A DNA stretch of 64,000 nucleotides, taken from a virus. This document shows, in pieces, positions 26,424-64,000 of this stretch (positions are counted from its first letter, which is position 1; every line of letters starts with the position of its first letter). Where the stretch lies: IMG/VR virus record IMGVR_UViG_3300020411_000371, positions 1-64,000 of that record; one strand, given 5' to 3'. The position numbers and the translations under genes are program-made. The notes beneath the pieces are model-generated. The model was not told where the DNA came from. It ran no database searches and was given only the letters and a program-made list of their open reading frames with translations.

Positions 26424-29400
26424 GGGTTTCGGGGTCAACTGGTTCTTCTCCGTATAGACTTAAGTCAGGAGCAGTCCAGTCATCGGGGACTACAGTTTCA
26501 ACAGAAACTACAGGGTTTTGATATCCAGAACCAACGTTACTGACTTCAACACCTGCAACCCCGACGAGTGCACGAATGCTTCCATCAAATCCAGATATAG
26601 AGTCAACCCTTACATTTGGTCTAGTTGTGTAACCAGATCCACCTGCTGTAACTTGAACCCTATCAATAGTTCCAGATGTTAGTGTGGCAGATGCTTTTGC
26701 ATTCTGTCCAAATACAGATCCAAGATAGTCGAATGTAATCAAGGAGTTAGAAGATTCAATAACAGCAACCTGTCTATCTTCAGTCTCACCTTGTATATCA
26801 ATAAAGTCACCAACTTCGATTGGAGGTACAACCTCAGCAGCGTCTACGTCCGCTTCAGAACCAACGTAGGAGAAGGCAACGAAGGTTGATCCAACACGAG
26901 GAATTTCAGAGAATATAATTCTAGAACCAACCAATTCAAAACCAACGCCTGGTTCCTGTATAACACCATTGAGTGAAACAATGATATTATTTTCTGGTAA
27001 GATTGTAGAAGATTGAACACCATCAGTCAGTGTCAATGAGTAGAACACATCGTCACGTTTCAAGTTGAATGACTGACGTAATGAATCAAACTCAAATGAT
27101 ATATCATCTAATTGTCTTAGTTTACCAACATAGAATCCTGTAAATGATGCTCCAAGATCAGGTGCTTCAGTAAACTGGATGTTATCTGAGAATGCTGTAT
27201 AAGCATTTGCTGAACCTGGTGGTTGTAGAACACCATTGATAAAGATCAACATATGTCCTGCAGGATCAGGGAAGTACTTAGTTCCATTCTCAATAGTTAA
27301 CTTAAAGTTAGTTTGAACTCCATCGAATCCTCTAAATGCACGTTCTACACGTCCCTTAAGATCAGTCTTAGTTATGATCGCTGCCTTGTAACCATCTTTA
27401 CTGAAGATTCCATCTCTACCACTAAATGTTCCACGAACATCTGTTAGATAGAATCTCTTATTAACACCAACATCTTTAATGTCTTGAATCAATGCAGTAG
27501 CAGCACCTGCAACATCTAACTTAGTATTAATTACTGCGTGTCCTAATGGATTGAGTGGATCTGGTGCAGGTCCAAAGTCACCAACTTGATCACCATTAGT
27601 AATATTACCTGCTGCAAGAATGTAGTATATGACGTTATTGTCAAGATCAAGTTCTGTAATAATACCATAGTTATTAGGATCAATAACACCATTAGTAATC
27701 TTATTAAGTCTATTACCAACTGTAAATACGTTCTTGTTATTTTGAATTGAAATACCAATTCTTGTATGTCCTGCAGATGATATTCTGTAACCTATTAAGG
27801 TATCTAATCCATCATATCTGGCAACATCAAGGAATAATTTAGATTGTTCTGGGAATATTGTAGCAGTGGTTTCAAATGTACCTATGAGTGTTTCAGTGTC
27901 AACAGTTAATTTACCACCACTATTATCTGTAACAGCAGCTTGTGCTTTTAAGAATCCAGTTGGGATTGCAGTTTCACCTGTGTCATATCCTTTGAATGGA
28001 ATATTATCTGTAAATTCTCCTAGAAGATCAGTAATCTGTATTCTATCTTCAATAGCATTGATCTGAGCAGTTGTTGCGTTAGTTGCACCAACAACATAAT
28101 CTAATACTGAGAATGTTCCACCAGTTACAGCAACATCAAGATACTTAAAGTTATCATCTTCAAAGAATCCATATACAACACCAGTAACTGTGTTATCACC
28201 TTGTTTCTCAACTACTTCATTCATGAAGAAAGGACCATCAACAATATTACCATCAATACGGAATCTCTGATAAATCTGAACAATTTCACCTTCATTCATG
28301 GTTACTTTCTCTAGTTCAGCGTATGAACCAGATGCTAGACCATATAAGTAATCAGCGTTGTTTAGACCACCTGCTAATCCAACAGGAATATCAAATGTTC
28401 CATAATCTTTAGTTGGACTTACTATACCATTTTGAACAATAATATCAGTGTAGTAAGTGCTATTCAATAATTGATTACGGATAATATCTAAACTATATCT
28501 TACTAATCTATGAACTGAATCTGGATGATAATTTGCTGCATCAGCATCACTAAAGTAAGGTACGAATCCTGACTCAGGAGAAGGATTAATTAACTGATCC
28601 TTCAATGCATCATATATCCATCCTTCTAATTTATTGATAGTATATGTCTTAATGTTGTATTCTGTATCAGCATAGAATACTTCACCAGATGTAGCAGCAT
28701 AAGGATCAATTAATCCCTTAGTTAATTTCTGTCCCCATGCAAATAAACCATCAGTTCCATTACCACCAAAACTAGTTTGACCAGTAGCATTTTTAATTTG
28801 AACCATTTGACGGAGTTGTTGGAAACCGAATGAACATGTAACTGTAATAAATGCTCTATACCATCCTCCACCATAAGGTATAACACCAGATGCATCTATC
28901 TGTAAACCACCTTGAGGTTGGAATATACTACCTGTAGTTCCATTTGTTAAATCAATATCATAGAATGCTTGCTGTCTCTGAGGAGTATCTTCATCTAGAG
29001 ATACTTGGAAACGTGCCTTAGTATATTCACCTTGCTTCAAGAATATGGAGTATGTAAACTGCTGACTTTCTGCTGTACCTACTTGTCCAGTATCAAATGT
29101 TTCTCCAGTAGTATCAAAGGTGACGTTACCAGAGTCAAATGTTTCAAACGCATTCAAACTGTAATTGTTATGTAATGTATGAGTACCTACAGTTGATGTT
29201 GCTACAATCTTATCAGCAGTAACTGCATTATCAGGAGCAGCAGTTACGTCTGTTGATATTGTTACATTAGTAAGAACATTACCGCCTCCAGTCAAATCTT
29301 CTGGGAAATTATATCCAACGTTTTGACCTATTAATTGATCTTGAACACTAGAACTAATTAACCTTGCATTTCTAAGAATCTCAACGTTTGCAGGATGTGT

Positions 29401-53328: not shown

Positions 53329-53515
53329 GAGGTTGTATACCTTTTATTGCACTCATTCTATTATATAATGCATTACATAATGTATCAGACTTCCTACGAA
53401 TCCATAATGACTCCACCATTTTGTCAAATTCTTCATCAGTCAACCATAAAGGCATTGGATATTTCTTCGGTTTGTTGAGTCTAGATTCACTCCAAGACTC
53501 TTCAACTTCATCCAT
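53324..53515 (-). CDS. Hypothetical protein, 63 aa
   Basis: Small charged protein (MDEVEESWSESRLNKPKKYP start, then LWLTDEEFDKMVESLWIRRK). Start ATG 53515 overlaps the TGA of the 34-aa basic gene (TGATG), which favours it over the GTG one codon upstream. Helical and Trp-rich; no family recognised. Its stop region overlaps the late-like promoter of the SET gene. Confidence 0.65.
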   Translation of the reverse strand: MDEVEESWSESRLNKPKKYPMPLWLTDEEFDKMVESLWIRRKSDTLCNALYNRMSAIKGIQPR

Positions 53516-53619
53516 CACTTACCTTGACCACGATATTTCTTCCTTTTACCATTCCGTGAAGATGCAGCGTATTTTGTGCAAATACTGCTTCCTTGACGTG
53601 TTTTTTTAGGTTTTTTCAT
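53515..53619 (-). CDS. Very basic 34-aa peptide
   Basis: ATG 53619 to TGA 53515. Composition is dominated by Lys, Arg, Ser and Gly (MKKPKKTRQGSS start, RNGKRKKYRGQGK end). It is coupled to the next gene by a one-base stop/start overlap, which argues for real translation. The charge suggests nucleic-acid or membrane-surface binding, but nothing in the sequence fixes a role. Confidence 0.55.
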   Translation of the reverse strand: MKKPKKTRQGSSICTKYAASSRNGKRKKYRGQGK

Positions 53620-53629
53620 AAAAATAGTG

Positions 53630-53896
53630 TTAAATTTTACCAAAAGTGCGTTTTTTGCCCTCTAAATCGTCTAAACGCTTAAAAATAGCGTCTAAAGTGT
53701 CATATAATGACAAATAATCGTCATAACCATACGGTTTATAGAAAGTTTTGTCACTTGTAGGCTGTTCTGAGACCTTTTTCTCTAATTCTGTGAGTCTATT
53801 TACTATCTGCTCCAAAGCTTTGTTAACAGTCTGGTTGAACTTCCATTGTTCCATCCAGTGTTCATCATATGCTCCTTCGAGTTCGTACTTAGGCAT
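53630..53896 (-). CDS. Hypothetical protein, 88 aa, coiled coil
   Basis: Begins MPKYELEGAYDEHWMEQWKF, followed by a heptad-rich helix (VNKALEQIVNRLTELEKKVS), a Tyr-rich link (YKPYGYDDYLSLYD) and a second helix (LDAIFKRLDDLEGKKRT). It overlaps the upstream gene by 8 nt. No family recognised; oligomerisation through the helices is likely. Confidence 0.7.
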   Translation of the reverse strand: MPKYELEGAYDEHWMEQWKFNQTVNKALEQIVNRLTELEKKVSEQPTSDKTFYKPYGYDDYLSLYDTLDAIFKRLDDLEGKKRTFGKI

Positions 53897-55240: not shown

Positions 55241-55247
55241 TATTTAG
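55241..55247 (-). promoter_or_regulatory. Late-promoter-like CTAAATA
   Basis: CTAAATA on the minus strand overlapping the stop of the AbrB-like gene, 26 nt upstream of the membrane-protein ATG. Weak by itself; the position matches the other late-type motifs in this window. Confidence 0.35.
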
Positions 55248-55405
55248 TCATCTAATTTTTTCAGTGTAAATTTACCATCTACTGCATCATACACTAGTTC
55301 AGAGTCAGTATTCCATCCAAGTTCTTCACATACTTCATACGGTATTGTAAGTATAAGGTCACCGTAATCGTCTTCGTCTAACCTGGTTGTGAATCTTGTG
55401 CTCAT
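55244..55405 (-). CDS. AbrB/MazE-like small protein, 53 aa
   Basis: The sequence LILTIPYEVCEELGWNTDSE followed by LVYDAVDGKFTLKKL has the strand-turn-helix-strand pattern of the AbrB/SpoVT swapped-hairpin fold (IPKEV...LGW..GDE...V..G...L.K). Family members bind DNA, often as antitoxins or transition regulators. The phage protein lacks the Gly of the classic GDE turn (TDSE instead). No toxin partner is recognised next to it; the downstream gene in transcription is a membrane protein, the upstream one a 67-aa unknown with which it shares an ATGA overlap. A DNA-binding regulator is therefore a plausible inference only. Confidence 0.65.
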   Translation of the reverse strand: MSTRFTTRLDEDDYGDLILTIPYEVCEELGWNTDSELVYDAVDGKFTLKKLDD

Positions 55406-55810: not shown

Positions 55811-55843
55811 AAAAAAATAGGGTTAGTGTGAGTTAACCCTATT
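55811..55843 (-). terminator. Strong intrinsic terminator
   Basis: Perfect 10-bp stem AATAGGGTTA / TAACCCTATT (55816-55825 with 55834-55843), 8-nt loop, then a T run on the minus strand (positions 55817 to 55811). It lies 27 nt past the stop of the 72-aa gene and closes the small-gene region. Confidence 0.85.
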
Positions 55844-55869
55844 ATAATCGTTTTTTACCTGTGTGTCAA

Positions 55870-56097: not shown

Positions 56098-56177
56098 CTC
56101 CTTTGTTTGGTATACATCTATTATAGTATATGGTTACCTGTGTGCATCCTCTAATGTGCCACTTATGTGATTGGCAC
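56098..56177 (-). promoter_or_regulatory. Regulatory cassette A (dyad, TATAAT, SD leader)
   Basis: Minus strand: dyad GTGCCA-N10-TGGCAC (56177-56156) spans the stop codon of the 56163 gene; then a GGTAACC palindrome, -10 TATAAT (56125-56120) and AAAGGAG before the ATG at 56088. No convincing -35 is seen. Confidence 0.7.
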
Positions 56178-56492
56178 GTGGTACAAAAATCCCTCCTCTA
56201 ATAGTCTGGTTACTGTCTGTTTATATCTCTCCGTGACCTGTTCCGTATCCAGTAAAAACTGACATAATTCTATAGTCTGCTCATTACTGATAAGGGGAAA
56301 TTTCTCGGCAAGTGTTTTATACTTTCCTGGAACTATCATAGGCAACTGGGCATACTGTTGGCAATGCCTTATTATCCCATAAATCTCTGTGCCTGTCAAG
56401 TTTGTGACGATTCTGTGATATTCCTTGCAAGTCGGTAGTCTGTATGCTAAGACCGTATTAAGATCGCATATTAATAACGATAAGATAAACAC
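56163..56492 (-). CDS. Putative exported protein, 109 aa
   Basis: The N-terminus FILSLLICDLNTVLAYR looks like a signal peptide with a cleavage site after VLA. The frame is open upstream to a TGA (KINLLVFILSLL...), which would give a more typical charged start, but only a GTG at 56492 is a standard start codon. The mature part has three Cys and helical segments (GTEIYGIIRHCQQYAQLP). Export of a phage early protein would be unusual; alternatively the segment is a membrane anchor. No family recognised. Confidence 0.6.
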   Translation of the reverse strand: MFILSLLICDLNTVLAYRLPTCKEYHRIVTNLTGTEIYGIIRHCQQYAQLPMIVPGKYKTLAEKFPLISNEQTIELCQFLLDTEQVTERYKQTVTRLLEEGFLYHVPIT

Positions 56493-56528
56493 TAATAGAT
56501 TTATTTTGATATTTATTATTATCAGTAA

Positions 56529-56534
56529 ATTATA
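56529..56534 (-). promoter_or_regulatory. Possible -10 box TATAAT
   Basis: TATAAT on the minus strand 37 nt upstream of the GTG at 56492, just past the stop of the 51-aa gene. No -35 or dyad found. Confidence 0.35.
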
Positions 56535-56545
56535 CGGATAATTGT

Positions 56546-56701
56546 TTATTTCTCTATATCCCTCCTATAATATTTCTTATTTCTGACTATCTCCCATAAC
56601 CCTATAATGATCTCTTTACATACTATAAAACAGTATGTTATCATACCTGCGGATGTCCTTTTTAGGATTAGTTTATTTTCTTTATTACTGTCCTTAGTCA
56701 T
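56546..56701 (-). CDS. Hypothetical protein, 51 aa, possible membrane segment
   Basis: ATG 56701 overlaps the end of the upstream gene by 8 nt. Basic N-terminus (KENKLILKRTSAG), a hydrophobic stretch (MITYCFIVCKEIIIGLWEIV) and a basic C-terminus (RNKKYYRRDIEK). Small single-pass membrane protein is possible. Support is coupling to the operon and uninterrupted frame. Confidence 0.5.
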   Translation of the reverse strand: MTKDSNKENKLILKRTSAGMITYCFIVCKEIIIGLWEIVRNKKYYRRDIEK

Positions 56702-56933
56702 GGGTAACCCTTATTAATTCCTCCCTAGTAATAAATTTTATTTCTTTCCAATATGCCTTACTTACTACTACGTTAGTTTGTTTGTATCCACTTTTGAAAT
56801 TTTGATTATCTTCGTGCTTTGTTGTTATGGTAATGTACTCATCACTTATAAAGTTAATCCTCCCTATATCTCCCTTAACCTCCACTAACTCACCTTTAAG
56901 GAAATTGTATTTTTTTAAAAGATCATCACTCAT
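56694..56933 (-). CDS. Hypothetical protein, 79 aa, SH3-like beta pattern
   Basis: Start MSDDLLKKYNFLKGELVEVK, then GDIGRINFISDEYITITTKH, suggests a small beta barrel of the KOW/SH3 sort. ATG 56933 sits 2 nt after the upstream stop; a longer in-frame start would run back through the preceding gene and is rejected. Function unknown. Confidence 0.65.
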   Translation of the reverse strand: MSDDLLKKYNFLKGELVEVKGDIGRINFISDEYITITTKHEDNQNFKSGYKQTNVVVSKAYWKEIKFITREELIRVTHD

Positions 56934-56935
56934 AA

Positions 56936-57175
56936 TTAAATACCTATGTAAACCTGTCCAGTTTTGATGATTAAATGCGAATCTGCTTTTATTGAATCTT
57001 CGCAATCCTTATCATATATGACTACCTCCATATTAAGTTGCTCTTCATTAAGTTTGTTTAACTCTTCGATTAGTTGCTTATATGTCATGGTAGGTTTTGT
57101 TAACTCTTCATGCCTTATTACTTCAATAGCGTGGACTACTTCGCACCAAGGAATTAATTGAAAATGGGTTGACAT
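56936..57175 (-). CDS. Hypothetical protein, up to 79 aa
   Basis: The C-terminal 50 residues (MTYKQLIEELNKLNEEQLNM, VVIYDKDCEDSIKADSHLII) form a pattern familiar from small phage proteins that begin MTYKEL. The true start may therefore be ATG 57088, giving 50 aa. The longer form from ATG 57175 begins only 9 nt after a TATAAT box, which would make it nearly leaderless. Confidence 0.6.
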   Translation of the reverse strand: MSTHFQLIPWCEVVHAIEVIRHEELTKPTMTYKQLIEELNKLNEEQLNMEVVIYDKDCEDSIKADSHLIIKTGQVYIGI

Positions 57176-57184
57176 TTTTCGGAA

Positions 57185-57190
57185 ATTATA
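57185..57190 (-). promoter_or_regulatory. -10 box TATAAT
   Basis: TATAAT in the 28-nt gap between the stop at 57204 and the ATG at 57175. If used, the transcript would start a few bases before 57175. It favours either a leaderless start or the internal ATG at 57088. Confidence 0.4.
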
Positions 57191-57203
57191 CTAGAATGGG
57201 GGA

Positions 57204-57431
57204 TTAGACCATTATATTATCTATACCAAAAAATCGGGCGGGCATATCCACAAGACTATCATTTTCTTGTATAATATCCCATACTATGATATAATTTCTT
57301 AACCACTCTCGTTGAGATACTGAAAGAGTCGCTTTATATGTGTGAAGTATATCGGATGCTGACATAAACGGTAATTGCTCATTATAGCAATAATCGCTTA
57401 ATACTTCGGTTAGAAATTCAAGTTGAGTCAT
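57204..57431 (-). CDS. Hypothetical protein, 75 aa
   Basis: Start taken at MTQLEFLTEVLSDYCYNEQL, one base after the upstream stop (TAA-A-ATG). Helical, with a DILHTYKATLSVSQREWLRN stretch. The layout resembles a small group of phage proteins with no known role. Last gene of the operon that begins at cassette B. Confidence 0.65.
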   Translation of the reverse strand: MTQLEFLTEVLSDYCYNEQLPFMSASDILHTYKATLSVSQREWLRNYIIVWDIIQENDSLVDMPARFFGIDNIMV

Positions 57432-57432
57432 T

Positions 57433-57651
57433 TTAAAATTTAGCAATGATTTTAGTTTTTTTCCAGTTAATTGGAAGCATATAGTGTTTATCGTTAGTTA
57501 GATAAACTTGTTCGGTATCATCAAAACGTAGTATGATTTGACCATACTCCTTATAATACCTTACATAGTCCCCGATTTCGATTTCCTGGAACTTTTTGTA
57601 AAAACGCTCTTTTTGTTTGGTAGAGTCATACCATACTGGTTTATAGGTCAT
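57433..57651 (-). CDS. Hypothetical protein, 72 aa, beta-rich
   Basis: EIEIGDYVRYYKEYGQIILR and TEQVYLTNDKHYMLPI suggest a small beta barrel. Charged N-terminus with several Lys. Overlaps the end of the 56-aa gene by 11 nt. Unrecognised. Confidence 0.65.
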   Translation of the reverse strand: MTYKPVWYDSTKQKERFYKKFQEIEIGDYVRYYKEYGQIILRFDDTEQVYLTNDKHYMLPINWKKTKIIAKF

Positions 57652-57811
57652 TTTGAGTCAAATTATCAAAACTAGGATAGAAAAGTTTATCAAGTATCTG
57701 CTCGCTCATGACCTCTTGCTCATCAGTCATTAAGCATCTAAAATGTCTAAATGCTGAATAGATTAAATCGTATTCTGTACGATTTGGTGTGAATCCTTCT
57801 ATTTTGTTCAT
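57641..57811 (-). CDS. Hypothetical protein, 56 aa
   Basis: ATG 57811 to TAA 57641, too short for many gene callers. Helical (TEYDLIYSAFRHFRCLMTDE, EVMSEQILDKLFYPSFD). ATGA overlap with the 42-aa gene upstream and an 11-nt overlap with the gene downstream make real translation likely. Confidence 0.6.
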   Translation of the reverse strand: MNKIEGFTPNRTEYDLIYSAFRHFRCLMTDEQEVMSEQILDKLFYPSFDNLTQNDL

Positions 57812-57936
57812 TGAATTAAGTCCTCGAATAGTTCGTAAGTTTTTTTAATTTGCTCATCCTCGGATAAGTCTGGAAATTCGGTTTGAACCTCCTCGAATAG
57901 ATTTTCGAGGATGATTTCATTCTGTAGGCAACTCAT
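57808..57936 (-). CDS. Hypothetical acidic protein, 42 aa
   Basis: ATG 57936 to TGA 57808. Very acidic and helical (IILENLFEEVQTEFPDLSED). ATGA overlaps at both ends place it firmly in the operon. Function unknown. Confidence 0.6.
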   Translation of the reverse strand: MSCLQNEIILENLFEEVQTEFPDLSEDEQIKKTYELFEDLIQ

Positions 57937-58193
57937 TTTCTTTTAATACCTCTAATTGCTTTGTCTGGATATGTTTTAAGAGCGTGTAATAGTAATGTGT
58001 CATAAATGTCATCACACACTTCTGTTAACTCTTGACATGATGCACCCATACTAGGGTCATATCCTTCAAAGTCAGATAATGCATCACCGCCTTCTGTAGT
58101 CTCTCTCATGATGACTTCAAAGGGAATAAAAGAGTTAATCATTGCTTGAGTATGGATAGTCCCGAACTCTTTTGTTTCATGTGTGAATAACAT
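57933..58193 (-). CDS. Hypothetical protein, 86 aa
   Basis: First gene after cassette B, with leader AAAAGGAGCATTTCAAAATG. Sequence features: THETKEFGTIHTQAMINSFI, an acidic loop with Cys (GASCQELTEVCDDIYDTLLL) and a basic end (AIRGIKRK). No family recognised. Confidence 0.7.
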   Translation of the reverse strand: MLFTHETKEFGTIHTQAMINSFIPFEVIMRETTEGGDALSDFEGYDPSMGASCQELTEVCDDIYDTLLLHALKTYPDKAIRGIKRK

Positions 58194-58200
58194 TTTGAAA

Positions 58201-58279
58201 TGCTCCTTTTGTTTTGTTATCTTAATTATAGTGTATTTTACAGTCGATTAGTGGGTTAATGTGCCACTAATCGTACTGT
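58201..58279 (-). promoter_or_regulatory. Regulatory cassette B (15-bp hairpin, TATAAT, SD leader)
   Basis: The 58240-58279 hairpin pairs CGATTAGTGG with CCACTAATCG and, after one bulged base, ACAGT with ACTGT. It is followed by -10 TATAAT (58230-58225) and AAAAGGAG. The stem has no T run, so it may be an RNA processing or operator site rather than a simple terminator. Confidence 0.75.
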
Positions 58280-58289
58280 CATACTGTTA

Positions 58290-58688
58290 CTAGTATCTGA
58301 TAGCGTTATTTGCTACTTGTATAACTGTGTAAAATTTACTGAGCATATTTCTGTATCTAACGATTTGATGAGAGTCTCTAAACTGGTCAACATCATTTAC
58401 AAATGCGATATAACTAACCTGAGCGAATTTTGTTTTATCAATATGAATTGCTGTATAGTCATCCATAGAAAGATCATCATGGGCAACATCATATACAACT
58501 TTAGCAACAACTTGAGAACCGATTAAAATATTGCTGAACATACTCTGATCGTGCTTATGGTGAATTGACATATTATTTTTCCAGTCTCCACTCCCATAGG
58601 TATCAATAGCATTAAGTAGCAATTTCTGATATGTGTCAATTTTAACTGTCTTGTAGTTCTTTTTTGAAACAACTGCTGTTAATGGCAT
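58290..58688 (-). CDS. Hypothetical protein, 132 aa
   Basis: Start ATG 58688 (MPLTAVVSKKNYKTVKIDTY) follows a strong AAAAGGAGTATTTC leader; the frame is open 54 nt further upstream, but that would read through the promoter, so the longer form is rejected. Mixed alpha/beta with NMSIHHKHDQSMFSNILIGS and KTKFAQVSYIAFVNDVDQFR. One of the larger proteins of this region; no family recognised. Confidence 0.75.
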   Translation of the reverse strand: MPLTAVVSKKNYKTVKIDTYQKLLLNAIDTYGSGDWKNNMSIHHKHDQSMFSNILIGSQVVAKVVYDVAHDDLSMDDYTAIHIDKTKFAQVSYIAFVNDVDQFRDSHQIVRYRNMLSKFYTVIQVANNAIRY

Positions 58689-58689
58689 T

Positions 58690-58775
58690 TTGAAATACTC
58701 CTTTTGTTTGATTACTCTTATTATAGTCGATACTGGTAACAAATACCAGTACTATGTGACACTAATTAGACTGTC
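58690..58775 (-). promoter_or_regulatory. Regulatory cassette C (two dyads, TATAAT, SD leader)
   Basis: Dyad 1 GACAGTCTAATTAGTGTC (58775-58758) overlaps the stop of the 55-aa gene. Dyad 2 is the perfect ACTGGTA-TTTGT-TACCAGT (58750-58732). Then -10 TATAAT (58725-58720) and AAAAGGAG. Confidence 0.75.
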
Positions 58776-58929
58776 CTAGCACCCCTTCCAAATCAAATTC
58801 TAATAGGTAATAATCTAAGGTTAGTCCCTCTAGTTTTAAATGTTTGATAACTTTGTTGTAGTCTGTCTTACTTGCAAAGTTAACTGTGAAGTATTCAGTT
58901 GTTTTTTTAAATGGTTTTTTAGTTGTCAT
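58762..58929 (-). CDS. Hypothetical protein, 55 aa
   Basis: ATG 58929 to TAG 58762, one base after the previous stop. Basic start (MTTKKPFKKTTEYFTVNFAS) and a helix-strand end (YNKVIKHLKLEGLTLDYYLL). The last codons (GQSN, stop) overlap dyad 1 of cassette C. Unrecognised. Confidence 0.65.
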   Translation of the reverse strand: MTTKKPFKKTTEYFTVNFASKTDYNKVIKHLKLEGLTLDYYLLEFDLEGVLGQSN

Positions 58930-58930
58930 T

Positions 58931-59128
58931 TTATTTGAATGATGTTAAAATGTGCGGTTTGTTCTTTTCATATACTACTCTTTTGAGAGTATAAGGTAAA
59001 ACGTATTTTCTTACATCTTCCCCAATTTGATGCTCTTTAGATGACCATAGACCGAGACCATTATCAATTTTAAACTGAATGTCCTCGTCAAGTTTTTCGT
59101 AAACTTCGATTTTAGTAACTATAAACAT
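58931..59128 (-). CDS. Hypothetical protein, 65 aa
   Basis: Small alpha/beta protein (MFIVTKIEVYEKLDEDIQFK, VRKYVLPYTLKRVVYEKNKP) behind a CCAGGAATTTATT leader. Second gene of the cassette-D operon. No family recognised. Confidence 0.65.
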   Translation of the reverse strand: MFIVTKIEVYEKLDEDIQFKIDNGLGLWSSKEHQIGEDVRKYVLPYTLKRVVYEKNKPHILTSFK

Positions 59129-59149
59129 AATAAATTCCTGGAATTTTGG

Positions 59150-59626
59150 TTACCTTAAGTATAGGTAACCACCTGCCCAGTCAGTAAAATCTGGGTTATG
59201 TAAAAGTTCTCTGTGTCTTATAATTCTCATGTCAAATCTTGCTCCCTTAACTGGGGACTTCCAACTTGCTGCTTTATGCACTTCACCAGTAAACTTATTA
59301 ACAAAGCAATTTACTGAACTGTCTGACCACTCTCCGTATCTAAATTCCTGATTTACAACTTTAAAGTACTTTTTACCTTCGATTATTCTAAACTTCATTA
59401 AACTACCTTCTACATTATCATTAATCTCTTTTAATTGCTGAATAGCATAGTCAGATAAGTCTTGTCTCTTGCCTAGGATAGCATCACCCTTGGAATATCT
59501 GATTGAATTGCTAGTTAGCATCCTGACTTTATAATTTCTGTAATTATCCTCTAGACTTCTGCAAAGTTGCTCTGTCCATTCTCTAACCCTTAGTGAAGTG
59601 TTAATGTTTGGAAGTGTAGTAGTCAT
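59150..59626 (-). CDS. Conserved cyanophage-type hypothetical protein, 158 aa
   Basis: Largest protein of the small-gene region. It starts with REWTEQLCRSLEDNYRNYKV, has a KYFKVVNQEFRYGEWSDSSV beta segment and FVNKFTGEVHKAASWKSPVK, and ends DFTDWAGGYLYLR. The FVNK.TGEV.KAASWK stretch resembles a family seen repeatedly in cyanophages, function unknown to me. Leader CAAAGGAGCATTTTTAAATG, promoter in cassette D. Confidence 0.75.
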   Translation of the reverse strand: MTTTLPNINTSLRVREWTEQLCRSLEDNYRNYKVRMLTSNSIRYSKGDAILGKRQDLSDYAIQQLKEINDNVEGSLMKFRIIEGKKYFKVVNQEFRYGEWSDSSVNCFVNKFTGEVHKAASWKSPVKGARFDMRIIRHRELLHNPDFTDWAGGYLYLR

Positions 59627-59629
59627 TTA

Positions 59630-59714
59630 AAAATGCTCCTTTGATTTGTATATACTAAGTATAGTGTAATTTTGGACTATTGTGTAGAATAGTATGACAG
59701 TAATTAAACTGTCA
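59630..59714 (-). promoter_or_regulatory. Regulatory cassette D (two dyads, TATACT, SD leader)
   Basis: Dyad 1 TGACAGT-TTAATT-ACTGTCA (59714-59695) is perfect and covers the last codons and stop (SVTV, TAA) of the upstream gene. Dyad 2 ACTATT-CTACAC-AATAGT (59693-59676). -10 is TATACT (59663-59658). AAAGGAG leader as in A-C. Confidence 0.75.
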
Positions 59715-60000
59715 CACTTCTATAGTATTTGCTCTCGCCATATCCAAATCTATCTGTTAGAATATCTCTCACTCTCTCTCTGTCTAGTGAATCACCATCA
59801 CCCCAAGTGCAATTTTCAAAATCATCATTATTACATCTATCCAAATATACGATAGTAGCGTGACGTATGTGTTCTTTAGTTAATGCTACTCCATTTAAGT
59901 ATAATGGGTATAATGGGTCATTAGTTCCATAAAATGAATCTACATAATCAACAAATTCATTGATCTGTCTTAAAGTGTTTACAATTTGAAGTGAGGTCAT
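59704..60000 (-). CDS. Hypothetical protein, 98 aa
   Basis: Helical start (LQIVNTLRQINEFVDYVDSF), then a mixed region with YLDRCNNDDFENCTWGDGDS and ERVRDILTDRFGYGESKYYR. The last codons (SVTV) are part of dyad 1 of cassette D. Its leader lacks a clear Shine-Dalgarno sequence, unlike the neighbouring cassette genes. Confidence 0.7.
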   Translation of the reverse strand: MTSLQIVNTLRQINEFVDYVDSFYGTNDPLYPLYLNGVALTKEHIRHATIVYLDRCNNDDFENCTWGDGDSLDRERVRDILTDRFGYGESKYYRSVTV

Positions 60001-60021
60001 TTTGTTTGTTTAATTACTATT

Positions 60022-60081
60022 ATTATAAAGGTAATAATACCAGTATGGTAAAATTGTGTGACAGTACTATTACCGTCACAC
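60022..60081 (-). promoter_or_regulatory. Regulatory cassette E (26-nt dyad, TACCA dyad, TATAAT)
   Basis: Dyad 1 spans 60081-60056: arms GTGTGACGGTA and TACTGTCACAC, followed by AATTTT, so it could terminate transcription. Dyad 2 TACCA-TAC-TGGTA (60050-60038). -10 TATAAT (60027-60022). Confidence 0.75.
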
Positions 60082-60095
60082 TACTGGTTGACTTT

Positions 60096-60266
60096 TTAAT
60101 CTTTGTCTGTATATACTCCCTGTATCATCCTAGTGCCATTATTGGCATACCATACTAATTCTGCATGACCATACTGCTGTGCCATATCATATAATATATC
60201 ATAACAAAAACCGCTTACTGGTTCTCTAATTGGTGTGTTTGGGATTTCTATAAAGTATTGCATCAT
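60096..60266 (-). CDS. Hypothetical protein, 56 aa
   Basis: ATG-ATG start (60266 or 60263) behind AGGAG. Sequence MMQYFIEIPNTPIREPVSGF then CYDILYDMAQQYGHAELVWY and ending MIQGVYTDKD. A compact alpha/beta protein, unrecognised. Stop lies 14 nt before dyad 1 of cassette E. Confidence 0.65.
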   Translation of the reverse strand: MMQYFIEIPNTPIREPVSGFCYDILYDMAQQYGHAELVWYANNGTRMIQGVYTDKD

Positions 60267-60278
60267 AATAAAAGACTC

Positions 60279-60431
60279 CTATTTAATAAGTTTAAAGTTG
60301 GAATCGAACCACTCTGAACGATTCTGTAAATTGTAGATTTCATCAACTGACTTTCCTGCTTTTCTTGCCTGTTGTCTAGCGATCATTGCTTCCCATCTAA
60401 GGAATGATTCGTAACGTTTTTGGTTAGTCAT
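60279..60431 (-). CDS. Hypothetical basic helical protein, 50 aa
   Basis: ATG 60431 to TAG 60279. MTNQKRYESFLRWEAMIARQ, then QARKAGKSVDEIYNLQNRSE. Arg/Lys/Gln-rich helices could bind nucleic acid or a protein partner. First gene after cassette F. Confidence 0.6.
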   Translation of the reverse strand: MTNQKRYESFLRWEAMIARQQARKAGKSVDEIYNLQNRSEWFDSNFKLIK

Positions 60432-60469
60432 AAACTTGATTAATTAACTATGAACTAATAATAATCGAA

Positions 60470-60518
60470 ATTATAGAAAAACACAATAGGTATTGTGCCA
60501 CTTTGTTGAACTGGTACA
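60470..60518 (-). promoter_or_regulatory. Regulatory cassette F (terminator hairpin plus TATAAT)
   Basis: After the 60519 stop comes the AGTGGCAC element, then a perfect hairpin CACAATA-CC-TATTGTG (60497-60482) with TTTTT, an intrinsic terminator. TATAAT (60475-60470) follows at once. A 20-nt block (60494-60513) is identical to one in cassette I. Confidence 0.75.
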
Positions 60519-60686
60519 TCACTTGTTGTAATTCTCTTGTATAGTGTTTAAAATGCTATCTAATTGTTTATCATTACAAATTTCTACTATATGGTCAAGT
60601 ATGTCATAAAACATCATATTTTCGCTATCTTCATATAGTCGAGATAGGTTAACAAAAACACTTGTTTTCTTATCGTATGTTTTCAT
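60519..60686 (-). CDS. Hypothetical protein, 55 aa
   Basis: ATG 60686 to TGA 60519, ATGA-coupled to the upstream gene. Helical: SVFVNLSRLYEDSENMMFYD, ILDHIVEICNDKQLDSILNT. Last gene before the cassette F terminator. Similar in composition to the 48-aa protein of the same operon. Confidence 0.65.
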   Translation of the reverse strand: MKTYDKKTSVFVNLSRLYEDSENMMFYDILDHIVEICNDKQLDSILNTIQENYNK

Positions 60687-60865
60687 TTTGATACTCCATC
60701 TAAAATTGATCTAAGTGTAAATACTATTTCATTATCATCAATTATTTCATTACTCAAATCTGAATCTGCCCACTCTAGCGATCTATCCATAATATTTTCG
60801 CAAGTGTCAACAATATAGGTGTGAAGTTCCTGGAATTGTTTATCAGTTAATTTAATAGTTTTCAT
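60683..60865 (-). CDS. Mini-protein of the 'LTdkqf' group, 60 aa
   Basis: Start taken at MKTIKLTDKQFQELHTYIVD (ATG 60865); the longer frame begins in the neighbour. A short strand (TIKLT) is followed by an amphipathic helix, a layout shared with at least five other small proteins nearby. Acidic C-terminal half (DSDLSNEIIDDNEIVF). Function unknown. Confidence 0.65.
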   Translation of the reverse strand: MKTIKLTDKQFQELHTYIVDTCENIMDRSLEWADSDLSNEIIDDNEIVFTLRSILDGVSK

Positions 60866-60998
60866 TAATAATAATGTCCTGTAATTGAGCAAGTTGGTTA
60901 ACATCTAATAAGTTGAACATTATATCAACTATATCATGTGATGTTCCATTATCGCCTTCTTCGATAATGTCATGTATCTCTTCTAATAATGTTTTCAT
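60852..60998 (-). CDS. Hypothetical acidic protein, 48 aa
   Basis: ATG 60998 to TAA 60852; overlaps the next gene by 14 nt and the previous one by ATGA. MKTLLEEIHDIIEEGDNGTS and IVDIMFNLLDVNQLAQLQDI are helical and acidic. Unrecognised. Confidence 0.6.
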   Translation of the reverse strand: MKTLLEEIHDIIEEGDNGTSHDIVDIMFNLLDVNQLAQLQDIIINENY

Positions 60999-61165
60999 TT
61001 TAAATAATCTGTTAGTTTAGGGAAAAATAAATCTAGCATTAAGTTATATGTTCCATAATCGAATACTGTCCCATTAACCTCTACATCATGAGGTAAAAAA
61101 CCAAAATGTCTATAATGGTCTAAAACGTATTCTTTAACTAAATCTGCGGATGTTTTGTTGCTCAT
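60995..61165 (-). CDS. Hypothetical protein, 56 aa
   Basis: ATG 61165 to TGA 60995. MSNKTSADLVKEYVLDHYRH, then VNGTVFDYGTYNLMLDLFFP. The start lies 3 nt after the preceding stop, the stop is ATGA-coupled to the next gene. Unrecognised. Confidence 0.65.
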   Translation of the reverse strand: MSNKTSADLVKEYVLDHYRHFGFLPHDVEVNGTVFDYGTYNLMLDLFFPKLTDYLK

Positions 61166-61168
61166 GAC

Positions 61169-61363
61169 CTACACTCCTCTAACTGAGTTAGATAGGTAGG
61201 TCACTTTAGCATTGCATACGTTATCAATAAGATTATCGAATGTTTGAACATCCCATCCTTTTTGCTCTGCTACATCATTTGAGTATGCTTCCATTAAGAC
61301 TTCATATAAGAAATCATACTGACTGTTGGAAACTTCGATTGATAATCCTTTTCTTGAGTCCAT
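61169..61363 (-). CDS. Mini-protein of the 'LTdkqf' group, 64 aa
   Basis: Start ATG 61363 (MDSRKGLSIEVSNSQYDFLY); the frame stays open upstream through the promoter, which is rejected. Strand SIEVS plus helix QYDFLYEVLMEAY fits the mini-protein pattern of this region. First gene of the cassette-G operon. Confidence 0.65.
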   Translation of the reverse strand: MDSRKGLSIEVSNSQYDFLYEVLMEAYSNDVAEQKGWDVQTFDNLIDNVCNAKVTYLSNSVRGV

Positions 61364-61390
61364 TTTGTTTAATGATGTTTGAATACTCTT

Positions 61391-61446
61391 ATTATAAGGT
61401 ATTTTGTAACCTATGCGTGGTACATTGTGACACATAATTAACTGTC
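61391..61446 (-). promoter_or_regulatory. Regulatory cassette G (dyad over stop codon, TATAAT)
   Basis: Dyad 1 GACAGTTAATTATGTGTC (61446-61429) includes the TAA of the 51-aa gene. Dyad 2 AGGT-N8-ACCT (61412-61397) abuts -10 TATAAT (61396-61391). No AAAGGAG leader. Confidence 0.7.
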
Positions 61447-61593
61447 CTCTAACTCATCCAATAGTCCCATTAATATGTTAGTTCTATTGATGAGAGCATT
61501 TCTACAGTCAACTAACTCATAATCAGTTAATTCTCTTAGACTTGTATTTAATTCTTCGATTTGATCGAATAGTTCCTCTTTAATAGTCATCAT
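61438..61593 (-). CDS. Hypothetical helical protein, 51 aa
   Basis: ATG 61593 (or 61590) to TAA 61438. Heptad-like Leu spacing through MTIKEELFDQIEELNTSLRE and INRTNILMGLLDELEDS suggests a short coiled coil. The stop lies in dyad 1 of cassette G. One base separates it from no other gene: it abuts the preceding stop. Confidence 0.65.
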   Translation of the reverse strand: MMTIKEELFDQIEELNTSLRELTDYELVDCRNALINRTNILMGLLDELEDS

Positions 61594-61824
61594 TTAATCC
61601 CACTCTGGTTTTGGTTTTGATGCTGTAAGTTTAGCAATTTTATCATAAAACTTATCAACTGTTCCCTCTAACTCTTCAATAATAGCATCAATTTCACCTG
61701 GTAAATCTGGGTCACCTGATGTATCTCCTTTTAACATATAGTCCTCTAATATGTAAAGAATTATAGAGGATTGACCTTCAGTTAGTGTAAACTTATGTTT
61801 TCTGTTTAAATCTTCCTTAATCAT
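61594..61824 (-). CDS. Mini-protein of the 'LTdkqf' group, 76 aa
   Basis: HKFTLTEGQSSIILYILEDY repeats the strand-LT-helix layout of its neighbours, followed by an acidic helix (GEIDAIIEELEGTVDKFYDK) and a SKPKPEWD tail. Overlaps the 75-aa gene by 8 nt. Confidence 0.68.
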   Translation of the reverse strand: MIKEDLNRKHKFTLTEGQSSIILYILEDYMLKGDTSGDPDLPGEIDAIIEELEGTVDKFYDKIAKLTASKPKPEWD

Positions 61825-62044
61825 TAATACACTCCCTTACTTCTTCAATAGTGTCAGTAAAATACTCATCCCAGTATTCTTGAAATTCAACTATTGCTTC
61901 ATTATATGTTAATGAATCCACCCATTTTGTTAGGTCATCACTTACATATTGTACTAAATCTTTTGTTGACATATTATCAACTAATCGCTCAACATAAAAC
62001 TCTTTTAGTATGTTAAACTCTTTATCTGTTAGTTTTAAATCCAT
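61817..62044 (-). CDS. Mini-protein of the 'LTdkqf' group, 75 aa
   Basis: MDLKLTDKEFNILKEFYVER is very close in pattern to MKTIKLTDKQFQELHTYIVD at 60865. The rest is acidic and helical with Trp/Tyr (EYWDEYFTDTIEEVRE). ATG abuts the stop of the 55-aa gene (TAAATG). Confidence 0.7.
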   Translation of the reverse strand: MDLKLTDKEFNILKEFYVERLVDNMSTKDLVQYVSDDLTKWVDSLTYNEAIVEFQEYWDEYFTDTIEEVRECIND

Positions 62045-62212
62045 TTAAAAATCCTCTACTGTTAAATTGTTTACTGCATCATATACTTTATCTTCCATTG
62101 AATCAAAAGTATCTGTATCTAATAAGTCACTCCTATATTTCATTGCTTTAGGATGACTTAGAAATCGAGTGAGTGATTGATGCTCTTCGATTGTTAACTT
62201 AATAATTGGCAT
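62045..62212 (-). CDS. Mini-protein of the 'LTdkqf' group, 55 aa
   Basis: ATG 62212 to TAA 62045. MPIIKLTIEEHQSLTRFLSH again shows strand, LT, then helix. The start overlaps the upstream stop (TAATG). Acidic C-terminus (MEDKVYDAVNNLTVEDF). Confidence 0.65.
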   Translation of the reverse strand: MPIIKLTIEEHQSLTRFLSHPKAMKYRSDLLDTDTFDSMEDKVYDAVNNLTVEDF

Positions 62213-62439
62213 TAGAATACTCCTTCAAGTGATAATTGTGTGTCAGCAAATAGTTCTTCTTCAACATCTTCGATTTGTTCATTGAACTCTCCGAAATCTT
62301 CAGAATAATCTGACCAACCATAATCGCCATCTTTGTAGATTTCGATAGCGTGTTCCTTACTTCTTGCTTCAATAGTGTAAGTTCCATATTTTTCAAATTT
62401 TACATTGATGTAAAATCTTTTTAATGTTGATGTTTTCAT
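62212..62439 (-). CDS. Acidic beta-alpha protein, 75 aa
   Basis: RFYINVKFEKYGTYTIEARS, then KEHAIEIYKDGDYG and a strongly acidic tail (FNEQIEDVEEELFADTQ). The 'xIEArSxexAIE' strand-helix motif is shared with the 88-aa protein at 62932. GGAG lies just upstream within the previous stop region. Confidence 0.68.
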   Translation of the reverse strand: MKTSTLKRFYINVKFEKYGTYTIEARSKEHAIEIYKDGDYGWSDYSEDFGEFNEQIEDVEEELFADTQLSLEGVF

Positions 62440-62441
62440 TA

Positions 62442-62582
62442 TTATTCTCCCTGATCTTGAAAGTTATCCCACAATGCGATAAATCCTTTTTCATATTTTG
62501 GATTGATCTTGATTTCATAGAAATACTTAAGCATTGCTCCAAGTGTTTCATTCTGCTTTTCATCAAGTTTTAAAGTTCTCAT
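62442..62582 (-). CDS. Mini-protein of the 'LTdkqf' group, 46 aa
   Basis: ATG 62582 to TAA 62442. MRTLKLDEKQNETLGAMLKY FYE is strand plus helix, a short variant of the group. First gene after cassette H. Confidence 0.6.
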   Translation of the reverse strand: MRTLKLDEKQNETLGAMLKYFYEIKINPKYEKGFIALWDNFQDQGE

Positions 62583-62606
62583 GATCTTTAATTGAATTTG
62601 TATATT

Positions 62607-62665
62607 ATTATAATACTGTGAATAATACCATAATGGTAAAACAATGTGCCACTAGTAGTACTGTC
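62607..62665 (-). promoter_or_regulatory. Regulatory cassette H (TACCATTATGGTA operator, TATAAT)
   Basis: GGACAGT-N6-AGTGGCACA (62665-62646) starts right after the upstream TAG. Then palindrome TACCATTATGGTA (62638-62626), CAGTATTATAATAATAT with -10 TATAAT (62612-62607). Nearly identical to cassette I. Confidence 0.78.
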
Positions 62666-62932
62666 CTATGCTTGATCTTTTAACTCACCTTCTGAGTTAT
62701 AATCAGCATCCGTAACTGACTCTAGTCCAACTGGGTCGGGTTGATTATACCACTCTTCTTGCTCTAGTATAATCTCGTCAATATCCCAGTCGGTTGTTGA
62801 CTCTGCAATAACTTCATGTGAGTTAATGTCCTCTAGTGCTAGGTCTCTTGCTTCCTCTTCGGACTCTGCTTCGATTGATACAGTAAACTCTACTGTCTCT
62901 GAGCATTTAACGTGATAAACTTTTTTAGTCAT
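62666..62932 (-). CDS. Acidic beta-alpha protein, 88 aa
   Basis: VYHVKCSETVEFTVSIEAES, then EEEARDLALEDINSHEV, a strand-helix unit like that of the 75-aa protein at 62439, with an acidic tail rich in Asp/Glu. Similar short 'VeAeseeeA' domains occur widely in phage and bacterial small proteins of unknown role. Last gene before cassette H. Confidence 0.7.
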   Translation of the reverse strand: MTKKVYHVKCSETVEFTVSIEAESEEEARDLALEDINSHEVIAESTTDWDIDEIILEQEEWYNQPDPVGLESVTDADYNSEGELKDQA

Positions 62933-63143
62933 TGAAATAAATGTGAACTGGGCGAATTGGTTTATTTAAGTATTGGATATTGCGTATGTTCTCATTTCTG
63001 ATACATCCTAGCAAGTGATTAATTGCTCTCTCTTCTGAACAACTGTTACCATTAAGGTCAACTTCTTCAGTAAAGAAATTAAGATTATCCTTAAATAATT
63101 CAATTTCTTCTTCTGATATTTCAAATGTTACTGTTGCTCTCAT
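62925..63143 (-). CDS. Mini-protein of the 'LTdkqf' group, 72 aa
   Basis: MRATVTFEISEEEIELFKDN is strand followed by an acidic helix, then NGNSCSEERAINHLLGCIRN and a basic end. Overlaps the 88-aa gene by 8 nt and is ATGA-coupled to the membrane peptide upstream. Confidence 0.66.
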   Translation of the reverse strand: MRATVTFEISEEEIELFKDNLNFFTEEVDLNGNSCSEERAINHLLGCIRNENIRNIQYLNKPIRPVHIYFND

Positions 63144-63277
63144 TTTTTATCAGCATTGAATGGACTATCAAAGTATGATCTATTAGCAACAAATAGTACT
63201 GTAAGTGCTGTTAATATACCAAAGAATCCAATAATTAATATTGGTGAATGGGGAAAATCGTAAGTTGGAATGTTCAT
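63140..63277 (-). CDS. Small single-pass membrane protein, 45 aa
   Basis: Start ATG 63277 (MNIPTYDFPHSP), one base after the previous stop; longer in-frame starts lie inside the upstream gene. Transmembrane segment ILIIGFFGILTALTVLFVA, then RSYFDSPFNADKK. Function unknown. Confidence 0.6.
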   Translation of the reverse strand: MNIPTYDFPHSPILIIGFFGILTALTVLFVANRSYFDSPFNADKK

Positions 63278-63278
63278 T

Positions 63279-63488
63279 TTAAATCTCGTAATCGAATTGA
63301 GTAGGAATAAAGTTATCGTAATCAAATTTGTATCCAACTACTCTAACATCCTCGAATGTATCAGTAGTTTCATTTACTGAACATACATGAGCATTGAGAT
63401 ATGCCTGTATCTCTTCTGCTAAGTGAAACGGATTGATTTCTGCTTCGGGTGTTGCTTCAAGTCTTACTTGAAATACTGCTGTTTTCAT
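63279..63488 (-). CDS. Hypothetical protein, 69 aa
   Basis: MKTAVFQVRLEATPEAEINP, then FHLAEEIQAYLNAHV and FEDVRVVGYKFDYDNFIPTQ. A two-strand, one-helix pattern similar in spirit to the 75- and 88-aa acidic proteins. TAATG overlap with the 47-aa gene. Confidence 0.66.
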   Translation of the reverse strand: MKTAVFQVRLEATPEAEINPFHLAEEIQAYLNAHVCSVNETTDTFEDVRVVGYKFDYDNFIPTQFDYEI

Positions 63489-63631
63489 TAGTTGTTTCCT
63501 AATAAGATTTTTTCAAATACACTATGCTGTTTACTAGTGAGTGGAAAATCCATATCTCTTAGTATATCATAGAGTTTGTCAAATTGATACTTTTCATCAA
63601 ATGTGACATTAATTTGAATGTCTTGATTCAT
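63488..63631 (-). CDS. Mini-protein of the 'LTdkqf' group, 47 aa
   Basis: ATG 63631 to TAA 63488. MNQDIQINVTFDEKYQFDKL, then YDILRDMDFPLTSKQHSVFE, strand plus helix. ATGA overlap upstream and TAATG overlap downstream. Confidence 0.62.
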   Translation of the reverse strand: MNQDIQINVTFDEKYQFDKLYDILRDMDFPLTSKQHSVFEKILLGNN

Positions 63632-63852
63632 TTTTGATCTCCTAGTGATGCGATAATCAAGTCTTTATGAATGTCTAGTAATCTCTCAAGATTTAAACCT
63701 TCGAGATCAGTCCACTCACTAACATAATCAGATTGATCTTCAGTTCCAAATGTGCCATCTAAAACTGTGCCATCCTTCAACCAAGGTGCTGACATGAGTT
63801 CATTATCAAGGTTTAACCAGAATACTCTGCCAAAGTGAAGTGAATGAATCAT
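63628..63852 (-). CDS. Hypothetical protein, 74 aa
   Basis: Start ATG 63852 (MIHSLHFGRVFWLNLDNELM) chosen because the longer frame runs into the promoter. FGTEDQSDYVSEWTDLEGLN is acidic; the C-terminus is a helix (LERLLDIHKDLIIASL). First gene after cassette I. Confidence 0.66.
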   Translation of the reverse strand: MIHSLHFGRVFWLNLDNELMSAPWLKDGTVLDGTFGTEDQSDYVSEWTDLEGLNLERLLDIHKDLIIASLGDQK

Positions 63853-63873
63853 GTTGCTTTTGCTGTTGATATT

Positions 63874-63934
63874 ATTATAATACTGCATTTGATACCATAA
63901 TGGTAGTACTGTGTGCCACTTTGTTGAACTGTCC
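63874..63934 (-). promoter_or_regulatory. Regulatory cassette I (TACCATTATGGTA operator, TATAAT)
   Basis: GGACAGT...AGTGGCACA (63934-63913) begins at the stop of the edge gene, TACCATTATGGTA (63905-63893) follows, then GCAGTATTATAATAATAT with -10 TATAAT (63879-63874). Confidence 0.78.
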
Positions 63935-64000
63935 TATGATGCCCACGCTATTGGTGGATTTCCCTCTACAAATATTTGATTGACTACATTATTGAGTCTA
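63934..64000 (-). CDS. 3' end of a gene running off the right edge
   Basis: The frame is open from 64000 to TAG at 63936-63934, ending NQIFVEGNPPIAWAS. Only 21 residues are seen, so nothing can be said about function. The stop directly abuts cassette I, as in the other cassettes. Confidence 0.55.
   Translation of the reverse strand, partial: RLNNVVNQIFVEGNPPIAWAS

Follow-up and report, generated by a model that had tools for sequence, protein, structure and literature searches.

Results

Organization of the junctions between tiny genes

The stretch of DNA analyzed here, hereafter the window, corresponds to bases 1-64,000 of the 109,593-base virus record IMGVR_UViG_3300020411_000371, which, judging from its gp6 and gp25 genes and from blastn matches, is a 109.6-kb fragment of a T4-like cyanophage. 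Between 53 and 64 kb it carries a series of tiny minus-strand genes running into gp25 and gp6, a layout also present in the annotations of P-RSM4 and P-TIM40. An earlier note, made from the letters of the window alone, had described nine junctions between these genes (A to I) as copies of a cassette combining inverted repeats with a TATAAT hexamer, and had read it as an end-and-restart element of an early regulon. The nine junctions do share a common element, located, like the promoter early stem-loop (PeSL) elements of T4-like phages (Arbiol 2010; Comeau 2014; cited in PMC4503421), among the small genes of a hyperplastic region, and composed of a 24-bp dyad, TGTGnCAsT-N6-AsTGnCACA, an unconserved spacer of 29-30 nt and a -10-like hexamer (TATAAT, TATTAT or TATACT), which lies 29 nt beyond the dyad, or 30 nt in F (Table 1). 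The window form of the dyad is TGTGnCAGT-N6-AGTGnCACA, with the arms N7 apart in F and I.

Table 1. Position of the dyad and of the -10-like hexamer in cassettes A to I of the window
Cassette	Element	Sequence	Position	Strand	Gap (nt)	Remarks
A	dyad	CGTGCCAATCACATAAGTGGCACA	56155..56178	(-)		
A	-10	TATAAT	56120..56125	(-)	29	
B	dyad	TATGACAGTACGATTAGTGGCACA	58260..58283	(-)		
B	-10	TATAAT	58225..58230	(-)	29	
C	dyad	TAGGACAGTCTAATTAGTGTCACA	58755..58778	(-)		
C	spacer hairpin	ACTGGTA-TACCAGT	58730..58752	(-)		-11.6 kcal/mol, without U tract
C	-10	TATAAT	58720..58725	(-)	29	
D	dyad	TGTGACAGTTTAATTACTGTCATA	59693..59716	(-)		
D	-10	TATACT	59658..59663	(-)	29	
E	dyad	TGTGACGGTAATAGTACTGTCACA	60057..60080	(-)		
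E	-10	TATAAT	60022..60027	(-)	29	
F	dyad	TGTACCAGT-N7-AGTGGCACA	60494..60518	(-)		N7 form
F	-10	TATTAT	60458..60463	(-)	30	TATACT at this site in relatives
G	dyad	GAGGACAGTTAATTATGTGTCACA	61426..61449	(-)		
G	-10	TATAAT	61391..61396	(-)	29	
H	dyad	TAGGACAGTACTACTAGTGGCACA	62645..62668	(-)		
H	-10	TATTAT	62610..62615	(-)	29	
I	dyad		63912..63936	(-)		N7 form, 20 nt in common with F
I	-10	TATTAT	63877..63882	(-)	29	

Several details of the earlier description were retained and others had to be amended. A palindrome is indeed found at every junction, although it is one and the same 24-bp dyad, and the TATAAT assigned to all cassettes holds for five of them, the hexamer previously read in H and I being 3 nt out of register. 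The second inverted repeat, said to be usual, is limited to C, D, E, H and I and is missing from A, B, F and G, and it gives a stable RNA hairpin in C alone. The AAAGGAG leader common to A-D (families D1 and D5) and the 20-nt block identical in F and I (D16) were both recovered, and some of the copies are thus recent duplicates.

With a local chance of 0.031 for a hexamer at most one mismatch from TATAAT at either of two given offsets, nine of nine in register would be expected with a probability of about 3e-14 from the local frequency. The 109.6-kb record as a whole contains the exact motif AGTGKCACA six times, always on the minus strand and at A-I junctions, while the reversed pattern has no match in that record, and AGTGKCACA-N25-40-TATAAT was found five times against 0.03 expected. 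A tenth cassette was located beyond the window by the matrix scan described below, at 65,603-65,626 of the record.

Distribution among phages

Whole records were searched for the dyad with up to two mismatches in a set of 25, including 13 named cyanomyovirus records. It was present in 12 of these 13 (P-RSM4, P-TIM40, S-PM2, Syn9, P-SSM4, P-SSM2, P-HM1, S-CRM01, P-SSM3, S-RIM14, ACG-2014f and MED4-213), and the reversed pattern had zero matches across all 25 records; S-CAM8 is negative at this threshold but contains degenerate sites. A matrix combining dyad, gap and -10, trained on other phages with the window left out, recovered 6-31 sites per genome in 12 non-window cyanomyovirus genomes, P-SSM3 not being among those scanned, against 0-1 in reversed-sequence controls (31 sites in ACG-2014f, 26 in P-SSM2, 25 in S-CRM01, 20 in S-PM2, 18 in P-RSM4 and fewer in the others). 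Most of these sites are clustered in the tiny-gene region by gp25. In the window, the seven best minus-strand matches of the matrix are A, B, C, D, E, G and H; cassette I scores low because an extra base separates its arms, and F was recognized through its identity to I and through relatives. An exact-dyad scan of IMG/VR gave up to six copies per contig among the matches listed.

The cassette is absent from RB49, HTVC008M and Ma-LMM01, as well as from the podo- and siphoviruses P-SSP7, Syn5, PSS2 and S-CBS2. S-TIM5, an unrelated cyanophage (a myovirus whose genus lies outside Kyanoviridae), carries five variant copies with proximal ends GGCCCA, GGCCCT or GGCACA and the -10 at exactly 30 nt. 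The likeness of the junctions exceeds what AT-rich DNA yields by chance, as the reversed-pattern controls are zero or nearly so. That the nine cassettes reflect chance likeness or the plain duplication of one junction, as the A-D leader and the 20 nt of F and I might suggest, has a negligible probability in view of these controls and of a conservation that extends across genera while the spacers are not conserved.

Consensus, spacing and the nature of the dyad

The consensus was derived from aligned copies in relatives. Over about 100 oriented sites the information content reaches 2.3 bits per position in the dyad and at most 0.4 bit in the 29-nt spacer, whereas the offsets of TATAAT downstream of the dyad form a sharp peak at 29-30; the spacer is followed by TATnnT and, about 11 nt further, by another TAT-like stretch. 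The distance is kept and the sequence of the spacer is not, and therefore the arrangement fits a protein that touches the polymerase. If the -10 is placed at -12 to -7, the dyad extends from about -65 to about -42, with its center at about -53.5. At most sites it lies on or directly beside the stop codon of the preceding gene, and the start codon of the following gene is a median of 25 nt past the -10. Divergent promoters served by a single dyad were considered and discarded, as about 12 of 94 sites are flanked by -10-like hexamers in both directions, a share that looks near background when estimated from per-offset counts.

At the variable fifth position of the arms, the combinations A-G, C-G, A-T and C-T occur 36, 27, 19 and 14 times, respectively, which agrees with independence, and the same independence is seen in the IMG/VR dyad set. 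Because the arms do not covary, the dyad is expected to act as a DNA site rather than as an RNA hairpin, and its reading as a hairpin or terminator was rejected. The RNA processing site offered as an option in the earlier note is not well supported on the same grounds, and also because the dyad is upstream of the RNA start of its own promoter. In contrast, both a regulator binding site and a restart of transcription find good support in the constant distance to the -10 and in the conservation across phages, and both are probable.

-35 boxes, terminators and module exchange

As previously noted, no convincing -35 box stands out in the window: the -10 is present in all nine cassettes and the -35 is poor. 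Only one promoter of the region matches sigma70 perfectly (TTGACA-17-TATAAT, 12/12, 55,841-55,869), and it lies outside A-I. It belongs to a minus-strand element at 55,816-55,869 in which the promoter overlaps with a sequence forming an intrinsic terminator, AATAGGGTTA..TAACCCTATT-TTTTT, with a core of -8.3 kcal/mol. Since the predicted +1 of the promoter is located within the hairpin's 5' half, the transcript initiated there may escape the terminator, and the element may thus stop readthrough RNA yet spare its own.

On average, spacers have slightly more structure than shuffled sequences (p = 7e-4), and ACG-2014f, P-SSM2 and S-CRM01 have a few that, with their U tract, are true terminators (for example at 27,211 in ACG-2014f and 53,915 in P-SSM2). 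No terminator was found in A-I. The "end" half of the proposed end-and-restart element thus applies to some sites in relatives and to the extra site at 55.84 kb, but not to A-I as a rule.

Similarity blocks between the window and five related contigs have 24 of their edges inside cassettes, where 10 would be expected, whereas other gene-start junctions hold 19, where 35 would be expected. L017 and L018, for example, have cassette F and the sequence preceding it in common, and diverge directly past its -10. A conserved cassette sequence can itself attract block edges, and this clustering consequently supports, rather than proves, that the cassettes are boundaries of gene-module exchange among related phages.

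One could argue from these edges, from the dyads at stop codons and from the U-tract terminators of some relatives that the cassettes are mainly terminator-promoter seams of the PeSL kind, kept in sequence for recombination, the dyad being a stem-loop that ends the upstream message. Nevertheless, the two arms show no covariation, the dyad is not followed by a U tract and the majority of spacers do not form terminators; a terminator would also not require a fixed spacing to the -10. Together these points make this explanation quite improbable.

Discussion

A proposed regulated promoter and the points against it

With a probability of roughly 0.6, we propose that each cassette is a regulated promoter at which a dimeric protein, probably an activator, works together with the host RNA polymerase-sigma70. 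The dimeric DNA-binding protein would occupy the 24-bp dyad at about -65 to -42 and, from this fixed distance, would aid the polymerase at a -10 for which a good -35 is mostly missing. At each cassette transcription would then begin anew for the one or few tiny genes that follow, the whole array would form a single regulon across 8-10 kb, and the cassettes could double as seams for the swapping of gene modules between related phages. The label of an early regulon given in the earlier note is plausible from gene content and position, and we infer that expression is early or middle.

Several observations weigh against this proposal. A -35 with at least four matches is found at 31 of 76 sites, compared with 14% at random, and some cassette promoters may accordingly need no activator. 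Activator sites are not classically centered at -53.5, and repression or another role for the dyad is possible. A comparison of gene content, looking for families that cyanomyoviruses have and outgroups lack, returned no clear candidate for a DNA-binding protein. The AbrB/MazE-like protein encoded between the array and gp25 has a suitable fold but is not put forward as the factor, for it has a net charge of -9 and is absent from some phages with many sites; it was not found in S-CRM01 or S-TIM5, and P-HM1 and MED4-213 gave only marginal matches.

This strongly acidic protein of 53 aa (55,244-55,405, minus strand; phrog_661) has MazE and AbrB as its top Foldseek matches and is present in 322 phage records, all of cyanophages. 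Another conserved product of the region is a basic peptide of about 45 aa (53,515-53,646, minus strand), KKTRQG..HTKY.A.SRN..KKRYRGQGK, which is very conserved and occurs in 447 phage records, nearly all of cyanophages and including S-TIM5.

The same anatomy would be displayed by a repressor operator, of phage or host origin, silencing the tiny-gene promoters, for instance late, through looping or contact with the polymerase. Palindromes near sigma70-like promoters are often repressor sites and some sites do have an acceptable -35; however, the dyad is upstream of the -35 region and not over the promoter, and a constant distance to -10s that mostly lack a -35 fits an activator better. We thus consider repression rather unlikely.

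Phage or host factor

Whoever binds the dyad, a phage-encoded factor is somewhat favored, because host chromosomes contain no excess of the site and because the site is absent from other types of phage infecting the same host groups. The opposite view, which overlaps with the regulated promoter proposed above and differs in the identity of the binding protein, is that a host transcription factor reads the dyad and that the phage borrows host regulation as it does with PhoB, which binds S-PM2d promoters (PMC10976474). A host factor is viable because a variant exists in the unrelated S-TIM5 and because the cassette is absent from the related HTVC008M, which infects a different host. On the other hand, only 21 of 400 picocyanobacterial genomes have matches, no more than the reversed control, WH7803 has none, and the cassette is missing from the cyanopodoviruses and cyanosiphoviruses that share these host groups. 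A host factor is therefore possible, at odds well below even.

A host regulon was discarded, there being no excess of the dyad in eight host genomes nor in the 400 genomes of the family. The AT-rich dyad copies in four related genomes (G024, G105, G147 and G163) resemble dispersed repeats; they have no in-register -10, except for two weak TAGAAT hexamers at a distance of 31 nt. Related picocyanobacterial genomes (L522, L525, L528, L529 and L530) contain dispersed repeats similar to TGTGnCAGTTTGATTAGTGGCACA that lack a good -10; one lies between two convergent genes, several are close to AAA-ATPase and PIN-like genes, and they are perhaps a small mobile repeat. Cyanobium sp. CH-040 contains an island of about 16 kb (L532:7553 to L533:~5000) with 40-50% GC in a chromosome of 70% GC, adjoining a tRNA-Ser; it encodes an integrase of the phage type, has Type ISP restriction-modification genes and gives a weak match to SSAP. 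Both of its ends bear phage-like dyads with in-register but weak -10s, which may be due to chance; it could be an infection-sensing mobile island.

Significance and relation to known systems

In a broader and rather speculative extension, the cassettes would represent an undescribed class of factor-dependent promoters that most T4-like cyanophages use instead of the MotA/AsiA middle system which they lack, read by a regulator from a family hitherto not associated with such promoters; the Cyanobium island, a mobile defence island in this view, would carry the same operator-promoter at both ends and might use it to sense infection. T4-like cyanophages are among the commonest viruses of the ocean, and a defined operator and distance offer a concrete target for the study of their early and middle control. 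The operator supplies DNA for pull-down experiments (TGTGACAGTTTGATTAGTGGCACA), its sites can be mapped in existing infection transcriptomes (P-SSM2, P-HM2, P-TIM40 and Syn9), and the cassette allows promoters to be annotated in thousands of environmental genomes.

None of the cassettes tested contains an NtcA, CRP, MotA, Pho or T4-late motif. Among 76 sites in the searched genomes, none has GTA-N8-TAC near -41.5 (NtcA), TGTGA-N6-TCACA (CRP type), the MotA box TTGCTT, which is also missing from the nine window cassettes, or the T4-type late promoter TATAAATA, and the Pho-type CTTA-N7-CTTA is likewise absent from the cassettes. NtcA and PhoB sites have been reported or predicted for some cyanophage genes, and promoters of this kind resemble the cassettes in having a -10 and an upstream activator site, but they differ in their GTA-N8-TAC or CTTA-N7-CTTA boxes. 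The middle promoters of T4 that depend on MotA are similar in that a -10 without a good -35 is accompanied by a protein site at a constant distance upstream; in the cassettes, however, there is no MotA box and the site is a long palindrome located much further upstream. Cyanomyoviruses have no motA and asiA, and early/middle control in T4-like cyanophages, which lack motA, asiA, alt and mod, has been termed unclear (PMC2984593).

The cassettes are also close to PeSLs, which are likewise short composite elements between the small genes of a hyperplastic region, provide a promoter for the next gene and sometimes a terminator, and coincide with boundaries of module exchange. PeSLs reportedly consist of a strong sigma70 promoter with a -35 and a terminator stem-loop, whereas the cassettes combine a conserved 24-bp dyad at a fixed distance with a -35 that is usually poor, and only some sites have a terminator. 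No early-promoter logo resembling the dyad was found in the literature searched, which left out Arbiol 2010, Comeau 2014 and the Syn9 transcriptome of Doron 2016. As far as that literature goes, and an earlier description being possible, the conserved operator at a fixed distance is a feature new relative to PeSLs. Few PeSLs were described in the S-PM2 region studied (PMC4503421), whereas 20 dyad cassettes score in the whole S-PM2 genome.

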